NCBI RefSeq assembly: GCF_001280565.1
Contig: NZ_LGRO01000001.1
Coordinates: 1,426,001-1,490,000, forward strand
Origin: Sulfobacillus thermosulfidooxidans
Lineage (GTDB): Bacteria > Bacillota > Sulfobacillia > Sulfobacillales > Sulfobacillaceae
Reading direction: 5' to 3'
Length of the DNA: 64,000 nucleotides
Under the pieces are notes generated by a model that worked only from the letters and a program-made list of their open reading frames with translations, did not search any database and had not been told where the DNA came from. Shown here one piece after another: positions 1 to 46,547 of the stretch. Position numbers and translations under genes: made by a program. How positions within the stretch are numbered: position 1 is the first letter of the stretch; each line of letters begins with the position of its first letter.

Positions 1-2135
1 ACGACCTCTATAAGAAATTCGGCCAACTCTTTGAGATGTTCAACGCGATTTACATCAGGAACATCCGACGGAATAGCCAATACACTATTCGCACGCACAT
101 TAAAGGGCGAAGGCAATCGCAAAGTGCGCATGCGTTCCTTTGGAATACCCAGACTTCGTGCCATGTAATCAAAATCCCCTGCCACACTTAAAGTCGCGGA
201 AGTCAGCACACCGGTTTTGATTTGACTCCATAACGTCTCATGGACTAATGGAGCGACATCGACCGGTCCAAAGCGCAACGTTATTTGCGGATTAGCGTCT
301 AAATGTGTGGCTTCCCACCAGCTCACCTGCTGCGGAGTCGGGGCTCCCCATTGATCGAGATTCAGACTATACGATGACATATCGTCTGCCCACTTCTCAA
401 AACGTAACCAGGTAGGGTCGTTTTTAATCACATCCCCAAATATCGCTTCGGCAGCACTCCAAATATCTCGTGACGCCTGTGCGACATTCGCCATGGCCTC
501 ACGGGTCAACCCCATCGCTTTTTCCAGTTCAGTTCCCTGCCATGATTCGAACTTCTCTGTAGTGACTCGCACGGCTTGCCGGTTATAATCACTGGCAGGA
601 GTTTCCGCAATGAACATGCTCTCTAAAACTTCCAAACGCTCAAGCAAAGTGATACTTTGCGCTCGCAAATATTCTATGGGACTAAATAAGTCGGGGTGCG
701 TCTTCAAATGATCAAAGAGACCATTTCTTGCCGTGTTTTCGGCTAATGTCCGCCTAAAATCCGCCATCACAAATTCCATCCCAAAAGTCCGCTCGACGAC
801 ATCGGCAAAGTGATGGGCTTCGTCAATAATCACATGATCGAATTCCGGAAGAACGACTGGATTGGCCATATGAGACGCTAGTAAGGCGTGATTGACAATA
901 ACAACATGGCTTTCCTCCGCTTTTCGACGGGCCTGGCGCATAAAACATGGACCCGCATAGGGACAACGAGGACCAGCGCACGCGTGGCGATCAGCCATCA
1001 CGTCTTGCCATAACTCTTTGGCTTCTCGTGAAAACGGATTAAATGCGTCGTAATCGCCGCGGTCCGTTTGCGCAATAAAGGTCAATAACCGCGCAATAGC
1101 GATACGTCGCTCACGGCTTTCATTGAGAACTGTCGTGGTTTGCCGTATTTCATCAGACTTCAGCAAACAGACATACTGCCCACGCCCTTTGACTAACGCT
1201 ACATTGACCGGCAAATCCTGTTGGGCCATCGGCAAATCTTTATTCCACAACTGCTCTTGCAGCGCTAAGGTATGCGTCGCAATGACCGTGCGTTCTCCTT
1301 GTTTCAAAGACACCAGTACAGCAGGAATGAGATAAGCCAGACTCTTGCCAGTTCCCGTGCCTGCTTCGACCAGCAAAATGGACTGATCTTGGTAAGCTTG
1401 CTCGACTGCAGCCATCATAGATTCTTGAGAAGGACGCTGTTCAAATTCTTCAAAATTTTTCCCGATATTTGTAGGGTTTTTGAGCCAGCTTTGGGATTGC
1501 CATCCGTGAGGGAAAGGCACAAGCTCGCGCCCAGTATTTGGTTCCCCGTGGGGCTGATCTAAAGGTGAGGGGCGAGTATTGGGTAGAACCTCCACTTGCC
1601 ACCAATCCCATTCGTTCCCTAGTAAATAGCGTAAATCTCGTTGTGTTGTTTCGGGTAGATGACTTAACGCAGTGCGAATGCGGTATAACAGGCGATAAGT
1701 TGCTTGAACATCATTACGAGCATCATGAAAATGCCCTTCCTCTGGAACTAAATTTTCAAGGCGGTAAGACGGTTCCGTTGGCAACGCAATTCGAGCCCAT
1801 TCTAAAGTATCGAGACAGGCTTCGATATACAGTCCCGCTCGTTTGAGAAAAGCCAGATCAAAACCAATTTGATGTCCTACCACTAATCGATCGCCGATAA
1901 AGTCTCGAATCTCCTCAATAACTTCATCCAACGTCGGAAATTGTGAAAAGTCCATGGTGTCAAACCCTGTTAACCGCCTTACAAATGCGGGAATCGATCT
2001 ATTCGGATTAATAAAAAAAGCCAGGGTATCTGTCTGACCGTTTATTTCCCGTAGCATCGCAATTTGAATCACTTGATCCGATTCAGGATTTAAGCCTGTG
2101 GTTTCGAGGTCTACAATGACGAAATCTGTTCGCAT
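1..2135 (-). CDS. dinG: DinG-type DNA helicase fused to an epsilon-like 3'-5' exonuclease (3' end outside window)
   Basis: I translated this strand by hand from the ATG at 2135 to the window edge; 711 codons are open, with the C-terminus missing. The first ~170 residues are a DEDD exonuclease domain like DNA polymerase III epsilon (VDLETTGL near residue 8, then GHQIGFD and HDARNDV). A superfamily-2, XPD-like helicase follows, with Walker A EAGTGTGKS and the DEAH box VIIDEAHHF. Between them lie four Cys (YVC, then HACAGPRC and PYAGPC) spaced like the iron-sulphur cluster ligands of DinG/XPD. This exonuclease-helicase fusion is the usual Gram-positive DinG. The likely role is 5'-3' unwinding or nuclease action on damaged or looped DNA. 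GAGGCG lies just before the start. It is divergent from the next gene. Confidence 0.9.
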   Translation of the reverse strand, partial: MRTDFVIVDLETTGLNPESDQVIQIAMLREINGQTDTLAFFINPNRSIPAFVRRLTGFDTMDFSQFPTLDEVIEEIRDFIGDRLVVGHQIGFDLAFLKRAGLYIEACLDTLEWARIALPTEPSYRLENLVPEEGHFHDARNDVQATYRLLYRIRTALSHLPETTQRDLRYLLGNEWDWWQVEVLPNTRPSPLDQPHGEPNTGRELVPFPHGWQSQSWLKNPTNIGKNFEEFEQRPSQESMMAAVEQAYQDQSILLVEAGTGTGKSLAYLIPAVLVSLKQGERTVIATHTLALQEQLWNKDLPMAQQDLPVNVALVKGRGQYVCLLKSDEIRQTTTVLNESRERRIAIARLLTFIAQTDRGDYDAFNPFSREAKELWQDVMADRHACAGPRCPYAGPCFMRQARRKAEESHVVIVNHALLASHMANPVVLPEFDHVIIDEAHHFADVVERTFGMEFVMADFRRTLAENTARNGLFDHLKTHPDLFSPIEYLRAQSITLLERLEVLESMFIAETPASDYNRQAVRVTTEKFESWQGTELEKAMGLTREAMANVAQASRDIWSAAEAIFGDVIKNDPTWLRFEKWADDMSSYSLNLDQWGAPTPQQVSWWEATHLDANPQITLRFGPVDVAPLVHETLWSQIKTGVLTSATLSVAGDFDYMARSLGIPKERMRTLRLPSPFNVRANSVLAIPSDVPDVNRVEHLKELAEFLIEV

Positions 2136-6758: not shown

Positions 6759-7556
6759 TCACGATCCCCCTAATGGAGTATCGGCCGAATTGTGGCAATA
6801 ACAGTCTCGATGTGATTGCAATAACGGAATACTCGTGACAATCAATTGTTTTAAATATGTCATATTTTCAGCCATGAGATCCAATACTTCTTGATGAGTT
6901 AAAGGATGCGGTGAGATTCCGGCTGCATAATTTGTAACCAAGGCCAACGAACTATAACATAAACCTAATTCCCGTGCGAGTATCACCTCTGGAACACTGG
7001 TCATCCCGACGACATCACCTCCAAGAAGGCGAAAAGCTCGAATTTCTGCAGGCGTCTCAAACCTGGGCCCTTCTGTGGCTACATAACATCCCCCGTTGAC
7101 TGTTGGGTAGTTCCTTGTTAAGGCCTGTTGATAAATGACTTGACGCATATGAGGACAATACGGTTCGGTCATATCCGTATGTACCACGCCCTGAGGTCCG
7201 CCTTCAAAAAAAGTGCTCACGCGTGACTTGGTAAAATCAAGAAATTGATCACACAAAACCACGCTACCGGGGGGCATTGCCACGTTTAGCGAGCCCACAG
7301 CCGCCGTCGCTATAATCCGTTCTACACCAACGTGTTTCAGAGCCCAAATATTCGCACGATAATTGACTAGATGCGGCGGAATCTGATGGTTTGTCCCGTG
7401 TCGATTCAAAAAATACACAGCGTCGTCCAGCTGATTCACTTGACCTTGAATGACTTTCACAGTGCCATAGGGTGTATCTACGCGTAATTCTTGGATCGAA
7501 CTGAGCCATGACGAATCATAAACTCCGGTTCCGCCGATAATGGCGATTTTCATCAT
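6759..7556 (-). CDS. mtnP: S-methyl-5'-thioadenosine phosphorylase
   Basis: The open frame reaches a TTG at 7673, but homologues begin at the strand motif MKIAIIGGTG, so I place the start at the ATG-ATG of 7556/7553 (265 aa); the ribosome site there is weak. Family hallmarks are the phosphate loop IGGTGVYD, NRHGTNHQIPPH near residue 50, GSLNVAMPPGSVVLCDQFLDF, and ATEGPRFETPAEIR, which separate MTA phosphorylases from ordinary purine nucleoside phosphorylases. It converts MTA, released by polyamine synthesis, to adenine and methylthioribose-1-phosphate. The AdoMet decarboxylase a little upstream in the window would be the start of that flux. The 235 bp before the gene show no SAM riboswitch that I can recognise. 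Confidence 0.9.
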   Translation of the reverse strand: MMKIAIIGGTGVYDSSWLSSIQELRVDTPYGTVKVIQGQVNQLDDAVYFLNRHGTNHQIPPHLVNYRANIWALKHVGVERIIATAAVGSLNVAMPPGSVVLCDQFLDFTKSRVSTFFEGGPQGVVHTDMTEPYCPHMRQVIYQQALTRNYPTVNGGCYVATEGPRFETPAEIRAFRLLGGDVVGMTSVPEVILARELGLCYSSLALVTNYAAGISPHPLTHQEVLDLMAENMTYLKQLIVTSIPLLQSHRDCYCHNSADTPLGGS

Positions 7557-40277: not shown

Positions 40278-41132
40278 CTAAGGAACCAATACCACATTAT
40301 CAATTAAGCGGGCTTGTCCTATGCGCGCAGCCAGAGCGATCAAGACCGGAGAATCTCTAATCACCTCAATGGGCTCGAGTGTTCGTTGGTCTACCAAAGC
40401 AATATATTCAGGATCGATGTTCTGGCTTTGTAAGACCTGCTTCACTTTGTCTATCAGCTGATTCGCCCTACGCTCACCGTTTTCAAACAGGACCTGCGCC
40501 GCATAAAGTCCTTGATAAAGAAAAGCAGCCTGCTCCTTTTGTGATGGCGTTAAATATTGATTACGTGACGACATCGCCAGCCCCGATGTTTCTCGGACTG
40601 TAGGGACAGCAATAATGGCTATGGGAAAATTTAAATCCTCGACAAGTTGTTTGATAATGGCCAGCTGTTGGGCATCTTTTTGTCCAAACAAAGCCAAATG
40701 AGGCCGCGTGATATTAAATAACTTAGCCACAACCGTCGCCACTCCATCAAAATGGCCCGGCCGAGCTAATCCACACATGACCATGGTCATCGAAGGCATG
40801 GTAATAACCGTTTTACTCGGACCATGCGGATACATTTCCAGTACTGTGGGAGCAAATACCGTGAGCGGATGATACGGCTCCAAAACCGCCAAATCGTTCT
40901 CTAAATTGCGCGGGTATTTCTCGAAATCTTCATGGGGTCCAAATTGCATGGGATTGACGAAAATGCTCACAATGACAACCGGCGCCAATGCCTTGGCCCG
41001 TTCTACTAACGCCAAATGACCGGCATGTAACGCGCCCATTGTCGGTACTAACGCCACCTTTTGATGGGACGGGACGCTATCGCGAAATCGTTTCATCGCA
41101 TCCAAGGTTTCTAAACACGTGATCCTTGACAC
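40278..41132 (-). CDS. panC: Pantothenate synthetase
   Basis: 284 residues from a GTG at 41132, with AGGAG 8 nt upstream; this equals the normal PanC length (the frame extends to 41192 without support). ATP-site motifs VPTMGALHAGHLALVERA and SIFVNPMQFGPHEDFEKYPR, the RPGHFDGVATVVAKLFNI segment, FGQKDAQQL, and the KMSKS-like MSSRNQYL are all present. It condenses pantoate and beta-alanine. panB and panD are not here. It is 13 bp downstream of the TGA-containing oxidoreductase gene on the same strand, so the two are likely one transcript. Confidence 0.96.
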   Translation of the reverse strand: MSRITCLETLDAMKRFRDSVPSHQKVALVPTMGALHAGHLALVERAKALAPVVIVSIFVNPMQFGPHEDFEKYPRNLENDLAVLEPYHPLTVFAPTVLEMYPHGPSKTVITMPSMTMVMCGLARPGHFDGVATVVAKLFNITRPHLALFGQKDAQQLAIIKQLVEDLNFPIAIIAVPTVRETSGLAMSSRNQYLTPSQKEQAAFLYQGLYAAQVLFENGERRANQLIDKVKQVLQSQNIDPEYIALVDQRTLEPIEVIRDSPVLIALAARIGQARLIDNVVLVP

Positions 41133-41145
41133 CGACAAGCTCCTC

Positions 41146-41814
41146 TCACAGCTCCAGTAATCCCTTAAGTTGACGAATAAAGTGATCTTCACTTAAGGCG
41201 CCTTCAAAACTTTGCTTCATACTTAAATCTTTCACCGTCATAATCGTTTTGGGAACGGCGTAAACGCCTTCTTCCTCCGACCATTCCGCAAATTCGTTAG
41301 CCTCGATGGATTCTCCACGGATTCTTGCTGGATTGGCTAAAGCCATCTGATGGACCAGGCGAACCGCCCGGGGACAGTGCGGTCACGTAGGCGTCACAAA
41401 CACTTGCAAAAGCACGTCATGTTCTAAATTGCGAACATAATTCATGGTCTTCTCACTCAGCCGGGAGCGGCCAACGGAAACATCGAGAATATCTTCAATT
41501 AACACAGCGAATTCATAGCCTGACGGTATCCCTAAAATGCGAATGCCGGTATCATCCTCGTTTTTGTCACGCAGAATTAATGTCGGAACATGCTCTACAC
41601 CATAGAGTGCAGCTAATAATTGATTTTTGTGAAAGTCGTAAACTTCCAGATGTAAAAGGTCCGGCATTAAGCTGACCACTTCGGTGAGAATACCGTGCGT
41701 ATGCTGACTCCAATCTTGGTCCGGATCCAAAAACAAATCTAAATGCACGGGAAATTTTAGATCCCGAAACATTTCTGCCAAAGTTTGCCGATCCCGTTCG
41801 TTTAAAAATCCCAT
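41146..41814 (-). CDS. Protein disulfide oxidoreductase (PDO family) with in-frame TGA at the active site; candidate selenoprotein (UxxC)
   Basis: Two open frames (41814-41383 and 41346-41146) are in the same phase and separated only by TGA at 41385-41383. Read through, they give 222 residues that follow archaeal/Aquifex PDO end to end: MGFLNERDRQTLAEMF at the start, GIPSGYEFAVLIEDILDVS in the middle, then VFVTPT-(TGA144)-PHCPRAV, EWSEEEGVYAVPK and a last helix. Relatives read TPTCPYCPRAV, so TGA replaces exactly the first Cys of CxxC. In the N-terminal thioredoxin fold the other CxxC is gone (DPDQDWSQHTHG). I infer selenocysteine at 144 paired with Cys147; a nonsense mutation or sequencing error is the alternative. 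GAGGGA lies before the ATG. panC follows. Confidence 0.75.
41355..41371 (-). promoter_or_regulatory. Candidate bacterial SECIS hairpin after the active-site TGA
   Basis: On the minus strand CCGGGCG (41371-41365) pairs with CGCCTGG (41361-41355), six Watson-Crick pairs plus one G-U, around GTT; opening the last pair gives the loop GGUUC. Eighteen nt separate the TGA from the loop. Bacterial SECIS elements need a stem-loop with G (often GGU) in the apical loop about 16-37 nt after UGA, which this satisfies. The segment also encodes the PHCPRAV helix, so pairing could be chance. Confidence 0.5.
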
Positions 41815-41987: not shown

Positions 41988-43616
41988 TCAGTTAACAGAT
42001 TCTTTTGGATTTTGTGTGGTTGACTCAGGCGACGTGGAGGATTTGTCCAAATGTGGCCAACTCAAACGCCGGCGCGCCGCTAAAAATTCTTGGCCCAAAG
42101 CGTCTAAGCGCATCTCAATCGCTTTGCGATCATCTTCCCAGAAAAAGATATCCAGCAACCGTTTTTCCAGGCTTCCCCGGCGTTCCAAGTGTCTTAGAAT
42201 CACATCAAGTTCTCCAATCACATGGCGAAACAAATCAATTTTCTCATGCAGTAGATGTAATATATTTTCTTCGATCGTGTCAACCGTGAACAAGTTGTAA
42301 ATTTCCACCGGATGTTCTTGCCCAATCCGGTGGACCCGACCAATACGCTGTTCAATACGCATAGGGTTCCAAGGTAAATCAAAGTTGATTAACTGGTGAC
42401 AAAATTGCAGGTTTAATCCTTGTCCTCCGGCCTCCGTGGAGACTAACACATGATCCCCGTCGCGAAACCAGGCAATTAAGCGGTCACGCTCGGTTCGGTT
42501 TAAGCCCCCGTGAAACGCTTCAGCCAAAATCCCTTGTTCTCGCAAAAAATTAACAATCATTTGCTGACTGGCCCGATATTCCGTAAAAATGAGAACCTTA
42601 CCTCCAATCACTCGAATCAAATCACTAATCGCCCGGATTTTCGCGGTCACGGGGATGGACCGGGCCAGTTCTAACAGTTCCTGTTGTAAGGATCCTAACC
42701 AGGTGGAGGATTCCAATGTCGGAATTAGCGCCTGAGGCGACGAACATAATTCTCGTTGCAACGTAATGAGGGGAAGTACCGTCTGATTGCCTTGAAGACG
42801 ATGGCGGTATTCCACCTTCAACGCGTGGGTCATCGTGTCATAAAGCCGGCGTTCGGCCTCACTGAGCACAATTGGCCACAATGTGACTTCGCGGGGAGGT
42901 AATGACAGCCCCACATCCTGTCGTTGATTACGAACCATCACTTGCGACAATAACTTTTTTAAAGCGCGTGCATTTTTAGGCGTGCGTTTGTCCAAAATGA
43001 ATTGACGATAAAAGCGCAAATAATTCCCAAATAATCCGGGTTTCACCAAGTTTACGAGGGTATATAATTCTGTTAATTCATTTTCCATCGGTGTGGCCGT
43101 TAACAAGACTAAATACCGCGACTGAAGTCCTTCCACCAACTGGTAGTTTAATGTCTTGGTATTTTTAAGGTGATGCGCCTCATCGACAATGACTAGATCC
43201 CAAGGCACATATTGTAATTGTTGATAAAGCGGCGGCCGTTTAGCCGTATCAATAGATAATACCCATAACCAGCCTTGATCATGGGCATTGTGTAGAGCTT
43301 GCCAACCGAACTTATTTTTGAGTTCGTGAATCCATTGGGTGATCAGTCCCGCTGGCACTAAAATCAATACCCGGTCGACAAGGCCTTGGGCCTTCAATTC
43401 AGCGATAATTAATCCTGCCTCAATGGTTTTGCCGAGTCCGACTTCATCAGCTAAAATGGCTCGACCTTGAAGATGATTTACCACCGTTAACACACTATCA
43501 ATTTGATAACTGTGCAAATGTAATCCCTGTTCGATATACGGCTCAATTGCGGGCCAACAGTGGAGATGGCCTATTAAGTGCTCTAGAGTCGGTGCTTGGC
43601 GCGATTTTCTGGTCAT
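41988..43616 (-). CDS. SNF2-family ATPase/helicase, last gene of the NHEJ cluster
   Basis: 542 residues. Motif I ADEVGLGKTIEAGLI, motif II VIVDEAHHLKN, motif III LTATPMENEL, and in the second lobe GKVLIFTEY, STEAGGQGLNLQFC and the motif VI pair RIEQRIGRVHRIGQ. This is the compact RapA/DISARM-like helicase core without SNF2 accessory domains; the C-terminus is a short coiled-coil-like helix and a Ser/Thr tail. It presumably remodels protein-DNA complexes using ATP. Its start overlaps the stop of the polymerase gene by 4 nt (ATGA), so it is co-translated with the Ku-ligase-polymerase set, suggesting a role at DNA ends. Confidence 0.9.
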   Translation of the reverse strand: MTRKSRQAPTLEHLIGHLHCWPAIEPYIEQGLHLHSYQIDSVLTVVNHLQGRAILADEVGLGKTIEAGLIIAELKAQGLVDRVLILVPAGLITQWIHELKNKFGWQALHNAHDQGWLWVLSIDTAKRPPLYQQLQYVPWDLVIVDEAHHLKNTKTLNYQLVEGLQSRYLVLLTATPMENELTELYTLVNLVKPGLFGNYLRFYRQFILDKRTPKNARALKKLLSQVMVRNQRQDVGLSLPPREVTLWPIVLSEAERRLYDTMTHALKVEYRHRLQGNQTVLPLITLQRELCSSPQALIPTLESSTWLGSLQQELLELARSIPVTAKIRAISDLIRVIGGKVLIFTEYRASQQMIVNFLREQGILAEAFHGGLNRTERDRLIAWFRDGDHVLVSTEAGGQGLNLQFCHQLINFDLPWNPMRIEQRIGRVHRIGQEHPVEIYNLFTVDTIEENILHLLHEKIDLFRHVIGELDVILRHLERRGSLEKRLLDIFFWEDDRKAIEMRLDALGQEFLAARRRLSWPHLDKSSTSPESTTQNPKESVN

Positions 43617-44506
43617 TTTGCCTCACCCTCCGAAGAGTGGCTCAAGCTGAGAGGAACCATAATCCCTTGAGCTTCGAGGTGCTGGCGTAAAGAAATGGCT
43701 GGTGTAAACACGCCGAAGAGATCGCCATAACGCCCAATTCGTTCTATGACACGCGGCATTGTCCACCATGTGGGCAGGATATCCACTTCATCAAGCATTA
43801 CAGGGCAGGAAACAGATGCTGTCTTAACCGCTCGAACGCTATAGACCCCCGCCATCGTCCGGTGATATCCGTTTTGCAAGAAATCAATATAGACACGTTG
43901 TCCTCGCCTAACTTTTAGCCGTTCCGTGGTGAATAAATGCGGGTAGGTCTTGACAGCGATTTCTGCAATAAGACGACAGGCCGTCGTGACTATTTCATAG
44001 GATTCCGGCTCAATTCTCATATAAATGTGCATCCCGTTATGACCGGAGGTTTTCAAAAGATAAGGAAGACGGAGTAATTCCAAAAGTTTAGCCATTATCC
44101 TTGTTGCCTCTGCAACTTTCTCCCACCCTACCTCGTGGGGATCCAAGTCAAAAACTGCCCAATCATGCAGGTCGGGTTCCTCAATTAAGGCTAGAGGCAC
44201 GTGCCATTCAATAACCCCCAGAGCCACCCATTGTAACAATTCTTTCGAGGTATGAATTTGAATCATCTGCGAGGCATTTGTTCGAGTCCGCTCATGTTTT
44301 TGATAAAACATCGGCCCGCCGATTCCATGGGGCCACCGTTTAACCGTCAAAGCCCGGTGAGAATAGTGCGGCAAAATCACCGAGCTCACGGCGGCATAAT
44401 AATCCAACAAATCGAGCCGTGTCACCCCAATATCTGGGAATAACACTCTTTCAGGGTGCGAAACATGAAGGCTAATTCGATGTTCGCCATTGACGAATTC
44501 GACCAT
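43613..44506 (-). CDS. LigD-type NHEJ polymerase/primase (PolDom)
   Basis: 297 residues, matching the free-standing polymerase domain of LigD. Start region HVSHPERVLFPDIGVTRLDLLDYY, KRWPHGIGGPMFYQKH, the catalytic pair Asp120/Asp122 in FDLDP, KTSGHNGMHIYM, RGQRVYIDFLQN (third Asp) and VYSVRA near the end are all diagnostic. It fills gaps at broken ends, preferring ribonucleotides. Here ligase and polymerase are separate genes instead of one LigD; no phosphoesterase domain is found in the window. It overlaps the ligase gene by 35 bp and the SNF2 gene by 4 nt. Confidence 0.92.
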   Translation of the reverse strand: MVEFVNGEHRISLHVSHPERVLFPDIGVTRLDLLDYYAAVSSVILPHYSHRALTVKRWPHGIGGPMFYQKHERTRTNASQMIQIHTSKELLQWVALGVIEWHVPLALIEEPDLHDWAVFDLDPHEVGWEKVAEATRIMAKLLELLRLPYLLKTSGHNGMHIYMRIEPESYEIVTTACRLIAEIAVKTYPHLFTTERLKVRRGQRVYIDFLQNGYHRTMAGVYSVRAVKTASVSCPVMLDEVDILPTWWTMPRVIERIGRYGDLFGVFTPAISLRQHLEAQGIMVPLSLSHSSEGEAK

Positions 44507-45305
44507 GCCGCATCTTTCCTTCTGCTGTGAGTTCTCGGTATTCGACTTCTACGTCAATTGGATCGGGTAAGCGCCAGATGATATCCGTCCCTCTCTTCTC
44601 CTTGACTAACAACGAAACCTCCACGTTCCAGTCCTTGGGGGCTAATAATTTAGCCATCACATCTCCGCCATCCTTGTCCGAACTCACCCACCACATCCAT
44701 TGACCATCCAGGGCTCGGGAAATTACAGACACGACGGCCCATTGACGGTTCATGACTAAAAATTTCTGCCAGGCCCTCACCCGCTTTCCTGGTAAATAGG
44801 GACTGTTTAAGTTCTTGGCCATGACCCCTTCAAGACCATGGTCCCACGCCGCCGTCCACAAAGCCATTCCGTGTTCGACCACACCATCGGCCACGACAAT
44901 TTTTCCCTGCGTTGACACCACGTTATGCAAATATTCAAGACGTGTTTTCAGTGGTTTGGCCAACAGCCATTCACCCTCTGCATATAAACAATCAAACACA
45001 ATCACTCGGTGTGCCCCTCCATGACGTCGTTGAAGAGCCGAAAAAGACGGTTTGCCGTTCTCCCAGGCAATCAACTCGCCATCTAAAATAACGGGCCGAT
45101 CGAGCTCCTTAGCCACATCGGCCAAATCAGGAAATTGCCTGAGTAGGCTTTGGCCGTTACGCGAAAAGATTTGGAGATGGTCGGTCCAATGGATTTGACA
45201 CCGGTAACCATCCCATTTTATTTCATACCACCAGTGGACATCATCAAAGGGATGGGGCACCCGAACGGCCAACATGGGGGCAATGAACGTATGAGGCTCT
45301 ATCAT
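44472..45305 (-). CDS. ATP-dependent DNA ligase (LigD ligase domain, NHEJ)
   Basis: 277 residues, small for a ligase: nucleotidyltransferase core plus OB fold only. The adenylated Lys30 is in EIKWDGYR (motif I); motif III PVILDGELIAW, motif IV HGLEGVMAKN and motif V RAWQKF follow; the OB fold begins at about residue 190. It seals nicks at rejoined double-strand breaks with ATP. Start and Ku stop overlap by 4 nt (ATGA). Its C-terminus overlaps the start of the polymerase gene by 35 bp. Confidence 0.93.
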   Translation of the reverse strand: MIEPHTFIAPMLAVRVPHPFDDVHWWYEIKWDGYRCQIHWTDHLQIFSRNGQSLLRQFPDLADVAKELDRPVILDGELIAWENGKPSFSALQRRHGGAHRVIVFDCLYAEGEWLLAKPLKTRLEYLHNVVSTQGKIVVADGVVEHGMALWTAAWDHGLEGVMAKNLNSPYLPGKRVRAWQKFLVMNRQWAVVSVISRALDGQWMWWVSSDKDGGDVMAKLLAPKDWNVEVSLLVKEKRGTDIIWRLPDPIDVEVEYRELTAEGKMRHGRIRQWRTSN

Positions 45306-46069
45306 ACCCTTTGGGCCGTCTGCGAAACCGATGCCCGTAATTGTTCCATCAAAGACATCACCTCGCGCGTCGTGTGTGTTTCTTCCGGGGTTATCGCTTG
45401 GGGCATCAACGCTTGGATCCGTTCTAAAAGCTCTCGCTTGGCCTCATTGGGATACCGTTCTGGAACAAATGGCTCCTGCATTTGTTTCACCAACATTACG
45501 GCCATATCCCGTTCTTTATCAGATATTTGCACGGATACATCGCCAAAGTTTTTTCCTTCTTCACGCAAACTTTCCGGAAAATACAAGGTATGCATCATCA
45601 AGGTCGACGAATGAAAGGTCCGGACCACAGCTAAGGACGGCTTAGACCGAAGCGTCAATTCTGCCAACGCGACTAAATGCGTATTCTGCATTGTATCCGC
45701 TAATAAGCGGTAAGCTTTGTGCCCTCCCGGCAGAGGCTTCAGCCAGTAAGCTTGCCGGAAGTAGACAGGATCAATGGCATCTAACAGATGAAAACTCATA
45801 ATGGTGACGTTATGATCCGTCGAAGACTGGACGATGTCCTGATCCTCGAGCACCACATAACGTCCATCCGGCACAGGAGCCCCTCGCACTATCTCACCGG
45901 ATTCGACTTCGACATGGCAGGTCGGACAATATTTTCGATATTGAATCCTGGATCCACATACCTTGTGAAGCCAATGAATCTCCACTTTTTCATCATCCAT
46001 CGCTTTATAAACCTGGATGGGAATAGAGACCAAGCCAAAACCAATCACCCCTTTATATAAGCTTCTCAC
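45302..46069 (-). CDS. ku: Ku homodimer DNA-end-binding protein
   Basis: 255 residues from a GTG at 46069 giving (M)RSLYKGVIGFGLVSIPIQVYKA, the standard Ku start, with AGGG 8 nt upstream; the frame runs to 46189 but there it overlaps the previous gene. The core bridge and ring segments are IHWLHKVCGSRIQYRKYCPTCH (a Cys pair seen in many bacterial Ku), RQAYWLKPLPGGHKAYRLLADTM, and LAVVRTFHSSTLMMHTLYFPESLR. The C-terminal extension is short. Ku threads onto DNA ends and recruits the ligase. It starts 10 bp after the gerW/ytfJ stop. Confidence 0.95.
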   Translation of the reverse strand: MRSLYKGVIGFGLVSIPIQVYKAMDDEKVEIHWLHKVCGSRIQYRKYCPTCHVEVESGEIVRGAPVPDGRYVVLEDQDIVQSSTDHNVTIMSFHLLDAIDPVYFRQAYWLKPLPGGHKAYRLLADTMQNTHLVALAELTLRSKPSLAVVRTFHSSTLMMHTLYFPESLREEGKNFGDVSVQISDKERDMAVMLVKQMQEPFVPERYPNEAKRELLERIQALMPQAITPEETHTTREVMSLMEQLRASVSQTAQRV

Positions 46070-46079
46070 TACAATCACC

Positions 46080-46547
46080 CTATTGAGATACGTCTTGGGG
46101 GTTGACCAGGGTTGTGGTGTGGTTTTGTGCCTTCGGCTTACCATTACCACTAATGAGATGCTGGATTTGGTCAAGAAGTTGGGGCACATTGTTCACGATC
46201 GATTCGAGCACATCTCCGCGATCAACCGAGAGTAAGCGTACATTATCTCCATGAGCAACCAGAAAACCGACGGGATGAACAGTCACTCCGGCTCCACTCC
46301 CGCCGCCAAAAGGATGCCCGGGACCGTCACTTTCCCGTTTCCAGTATTCACCACCCCCAGCGGCAAATCCAAAGGAAACACGCGACACCGGAATAATTGT
46401 CCCGCCGTCAGGCGTCTGAACCGGTTGACCCACCACCGTGTTCACATCGATCATGCCTTTAATCGATTCCATGGCTGTTTTCATGAGACTTTCAATAGGA
46501 TGTCCCTCTTGATATGCATGTGAGTCCGTGTTGGTGATATGTTCCAC
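46080..46547 (-). CDS. ytfJ: Spore protein GerW/YtfJ
   Basis: 155 residues from a GTG at 46547 (GGAG 8 nt upstream); the frame runs upstream to 46631 into the neighbour. The signature is HPIESLMKTAMESIKGMIDVNTVVGQPVQTPDGGTIIPVSRVSFGFAAGGGEY, then a Gly-rich stretch GGGSGAGVTVHPVGFLV. YtfJ/GerW is made in the forespore under SigG control in Bacillus and is needed for some germinant responses. Location directly before ku suggests the repair genes share its forespore expression. Confidence 0.94.
   Translation of the reverse strand: MEHITNTDSHAYQEGHPIESLMKTAMESIKGMIDVNTVVGQPVQTPDGGTIIPVSRVSFGFAAGGGEYWKRESDGPGHPFGGGSGAGVTVHPVGFLVAHGDNVRLLSVDRGDVLESIVNNVPQLLDQIQHLISGNGKPKAQNHTTTLVNPQDVSQ

Follow-up and report, generated by a model that had tools for sequence, protein, structure and literature searches.

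The window (the whole 64,000-nucleotide stretch of DNA that was analyzed) contains a PDO-family gene whose reading frame is interrupted by TGA at a catalytic position, which raises the question of whether this codon ends the protein or is read as selenocysteine (Sec). The frame runs from an ATG at 41814 to a TGA at 41148-41146, and the TGA at 41385-41383 is its sole internal stop, with identical phase on either side. The two frames that the initial annotation had joined do make up one PDO of 222 residues, whose translation has U144 and C147 within the motif TPTUPHCP; the second Cys of the active-site pair is retained, as had been claimed. ORF calling under translation table 11 ends the gene at its catalytic residue. 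In an NCBIfam profile search, residues 6-217 match TIGR02187, named PDO_seleno_TRX, with 208.3 bits against a cut-off of 185. We predict from the sequence that the gene product is a selenoprotein belonging to the PDO/AhpF-N-terminal-domain family, with UGA codon 144 read as Sec (probability about 0.95).

Table 1. Features at the PDO locus (positions in the window)
Feature	Position	Strand	Description	Basis
Sec-containing PDO gene (predicted)	41146..41814	-	222 aa, one in-frame UGA (Sec144), UxxC	Frame, TIGR02187 match, fold, codon column
TGA codon 144	41383..41385	-	First Cys position of CxxC (TPT-U-PHC)	Translation and homologue column
Predicted bacterial SECIS hairpin	41355..41371	-	CCGGGC-ggttc-GCCTGG	6 pairs, 5-nt loop, comparative pairing
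panC	40278..41132	-	Pantothenate synthetase of 284 aa; starts with GTG, 13 nt past the PDO stop codon	
SNF2-type helicase-like protein	41988..43616	-	173 nt upstream of PDO gene	

PDO relatives were found in all 34 genomes of the same family that were searched, and 120 distinct PDO-family genes from these genomes were mapped to the active-site column. This column holds TGA in 87 genes and TGC or TGT in 33; no other codon, TAA and TAG included, occurs there in any of the 120 genes. The alignment thus bears out the proposal that TGA occupies the position of the first active-site Cys, and the relatives supply the corresponding TGA/Cys pairs. TGA is present at the same column in a sister family and in some distant genera of the phylum, several of them with the hairpin described below.

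The SNF2-type helicase gene upstream and panC downstream are kept across the orthologue clade, in Sec and Cys members alike, and these conserved neighbors fix the orthology. The distance to panC given in the initial annotation is correct, as counted to the GTG at 41132. Eleven of the 15 close orthologues, which come from different genera and assemblies, have TGA, and Cys is found in genomes G017, G007, G008, and G005. Because a single base separates TGA from TGC or TGT and Cys orthologues are known, the gene could be a pseudogene, an ordinary Cys-type PDO gene in which the TGA arose by nonsense mutation or through a sequencing error. Such an accident would have to be shared by the 11 orthologues and by the 87 TGA genes of the family. 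It is also at odds with purifying selection on both halves of the gene (dN/dS after the TGA of ~0.01 to 0.19 where computable, well below 1), with a column that lacks TAA and TAG, and with a hairpin that is retained specifically alongside TGA. We rejected the pseudogene reading on the conservation of TGA across genera and give it practically no weight; the argument that a chance nonsense mutation is unlikely holds.

The upstream ORF by itself encodes a complete N-terminal thioredoxin fold, which fits a UGA that is a true stop, with either a functional truncated protein of 143 residues or a second half that is re-initiated. Under a true stop, however, drift to TAA or TAG would be expected in some of the TGA genes, and none of the 87 shows it; moreover, the downstream half is as conserved as the catalytic domain in Cys homologues. 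Also against this reading, the PDO copies of G003 and G004, two genomes of one genus in which neither selA nor selB was found above cut-off, are all uninterrupted Cys frames (7 of 7 copies, across four paralogue clades). Because these assemblies are fragmented (96-97% complete), the absence of selA and selB is likely but not proven. Given the lack of TAA and TAG in the 87 genes and the conserved downstream half, functional truncation was rejected, and we regard a true stop as exceedingly improbable.

The host genome (G000; 3.83 Mb, 99.98% complete) encodes tRNA-Sec with anticodon TCA and has matches to selA (557 bits), selB (361 bits), and selD (362 bits). The sel genes that the initial annotation had proposed looking for are therefore all in place, and none of the findings that it had named as speaking against a selenoprotein, such as a genome without sel genes, was made. 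Read-through by itself would likewise yield a full-length product if UGA were reassigned to, or misread as, Trp or Cys. Yet the PDO gene's own terminal stop is TGA, the column exchanges with Cys codons only, and tRNA-Sec, SelA, SelB, and SelD are all encoded, so we consider such a reading very unlikely. The selD gene (L017) holds a UGA of its own in the motif SGUGCK, and selenophosphate synthetase is thus also a predicted selenoprotein. The genome further encodes a PrxU-type peroxiredoxin whose TPVU motif includes an in-frame UGA (L183, positions 1273-1920, minus strand), a possible partner of the Sec-PDOs, and a canonical thioredoxin reductase (C2:164537-165439; 401 bits, above its cut-off). 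Since the PrxU of S. thermotolerans is reported to be upregulated in ore-grown cells (PMC7409299), Sec use already has a precedent within the genus.

Reading of UGA as Sec would be directed by the predicted SECIS hairpin, which begins 11 nt after the UGA codon. With the T of TGA numbered +1, its stem pairs +15 to +20 with +26 to +31. The 5-nt loop follows the pattern NGUNN, with an invariant G and with U in 86 of the 87 TGA genes. The stem is complete in 75 of the 87 TGA genes versus 1 of the 33 Cys genes; in the other 12 TGA genes, one to three of the six pairs do not form. At other offsets, a complete stem is found in 0 to 5 of the 87 TGA genes. A TGA-versus-Cys difference of this size was not matched in any of 20,000 label shuffles. 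The stem sequences include compensatory variants (CCGGGC/GCCTGG, CCATGT/ACATGG, CCAGAT/ATCTGG, CGAGGC/GCCTCG, and ACATGC/GCATGT). The sole fully paired Cys gene, from G017, adjoins an orthologue with TGA and has the look of a recent switch.

Because the relatives are not independent, contrasts were drawn on the tree. The family tree needs ~11 Sec/Cys changes, at least 10 of them on well-supported branches, and 10 independent contrasts were paired on the maximum-likelihood tree. On average, the hairpin went with Sec in 7.8 contrasts, went against it in none, and was unchanged in 2.2 (median P = 0.008). The stability of the single sequence relative to shuffles is not significant (z = −1.5 for a short stretch and 0.1 for 51 nt), and the case for the hairpin is therefore entirely comparative. 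An Rfam scan of the hairpin site returned chance-level matches only. Three genes of a distant genus in the same phylum (L162, L163, and L164) have TGA at the column and no stem at the usual spacing; their SECIS must differ or sit at another offset.

We scanned the window for in-frame TGA codons flanked on both sides by 40 or more open codons. Of these, only the TGA of the PDO gene has a hairpin at the offset conserved among its relatives; the remaining long frames joined across a TGA lack a hairpin there. The longest TGA-joined pair, at 6761, was rejected as two separate adjoining genes. Promoter and terminator scans gave scores at or under chance level. Next to the SNF2 helicase gene, positions 43613-46189 hold a Ku-like and two LigD-like genes (ligase and polymerase domain) in a row; judged by eye from their translations, they appear to make up a non-homologous end-joining cluster. 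The panC and SNF2 helicase neighbors give no pointer to the substrate of the PDO.

The genome encodes five PDO paralogues including the window gene, four with Sec and one with Cys. The others are located at C2:67352 (L054), C1:1246869 (L056), C1:1004120 (L057), and C1:2958662 (L055); at the active-site column, three of these are TGA genes (UPYC, UTRC, and UPKC), and the remaining one encodes CRWC and has an imperfectly paired hairpin. In the clade that includes the panC-linked orthologues, several Cys members (L038, L041, L043, L046, L052, L082, and L092) have CPHS instead of CPHC, and this loss of the second (resolving) Cys as well suggests a changed mechanism. A search among named genomes gave a match at 83% identity in Sulfobacillus benefaciens AMDSBA1, and a plasmid collection contained distant PDO homologues only (<60% identity). 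A viral-classed contig from IMG/VR (IMGVR_UViG_3300005855_000003, L195) carries a Cys-type PDO homologue at 43% identity, with CxxC in its N-terminal half as well; it may represent either host DNA or a carried gene.

The AlphaFold2 model of the PDO is a double thioredoxin fold (mean pLDDT 95). Its closest PDB structure is the Pyrococcus furiosus PDO (1a8l; TM 0.93), to which the window PDO is homologous over its full length (135 bits); the Aquifex PDO (2ayt) is likewise a classical PDO comparable over the full length and in fold. Classical PDOs have CxxC in each half, whereas the window PDO has none in its N-terminal half and UxxC in its C-terminal half. In the alignment to 1a8l, the N-terminal half contains no Cys, and its CxxC is also absent from close relatives but present in most of the relatives that were sampled from other parts of the phylum. 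With no CxxC in the N-terminal half, the protein has a single redox center and is not a classical two-site PDO. Next among the structures are the AhpF N-terminal domains (5h29 and 1zyn; TM 0.79-0.86), which share with the window PDO both the double thioredoxin fold and an active site confined to the second half. AhpF, however, has Cys and is fused to a C-terminal flavin/NADH reductase, while the window PDO is a free-standing protein of 222 aa with predicted Sec. Bacterial Sec-thioredoxins and Sec-glutaredoxins have the same UxxC and chemistry but are single-domain proteins of other families.

We propose that SelB with Sec-tRNA, recruited by the SECIS hairpin inside the coding sequence, would decode UGA 144 as Sec. 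The product would consist of two fused thioredoxin folds, of which the N-terminal one lacks active-site cysteines. In the C-terminal fold, Sec144-Pro-His-Cys147 would cycle between a selenenylsulfide and the selenol/thiol form, and the protein is expected to act as a one-center thiol/selenol-disulfide carrier, presumably in the cytoplasm. Electrons would most likely come from NADPH via thioredoxin reductase and most likely pass to protein disulfides or to peroxiredoxins, for example, the PrxU-type protein of this genome.

The initial annotation had called the gene a likely new UxxC selenoprotein. The machinery, the TGA/Cys exchange, the covarying hairpin, and the all-Cys copies in G003 and G004 strongly support the selenoprotein part, but "new" is too strong, because TIGR02187 UxxC proteins have been listed as predicted selenoproteins since 2006. 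The list of that year has them under the family name "homolog of AhpF, amino-terminal domain," for Carboxydothermus and Symbiobacterium (PMC1794560), and the family also appears in selenoprotein tables of 2022 and 2026 (PMC9312934 and PMC13188914). The Carboxydothermus (ABB15282.1) and Symbiobacterium proteins match the same model and, like the window PDO, have predicted Sec first in UxxC; two genes were counted in 2006, versus several Sec paralogues per genome in the Sulfobacillus group. None of these three papers mentions this group of acidophiles as carriers of TIGR02187, and the open-licence literature on Sulfobacillus holds no description of a PDO selenoprotein, only of formate dehydrogenase and PrxU. 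The expansion of the family, with Sec in several paralogue clades and, in this genome, four copies with Sec beside one with Cys, may be unreported in the open literature.

The finding corrects a gene model where standard ORF calling cuts at the catalytic residue. More tentatively, we suggest that the Sulfobacillus family might possess a diversified set of Sec-PDOs, including a one-site form, that could act with the PrxU-type peroxiredoxin in a selenium-based relay, a previously undescribed, lineage-specific "seleno-thioredoxin" system in an aerobic acidophile. The family also offers a natural experiment, with at least 10 Sec/Cys switches on one tree, a hairpin that usually decays after replacement by Cys, and Cys in all copies of both genomes without SelA and SelB. 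Retention or loss of Sec in aerobic acidophiles is thereby directly testable.
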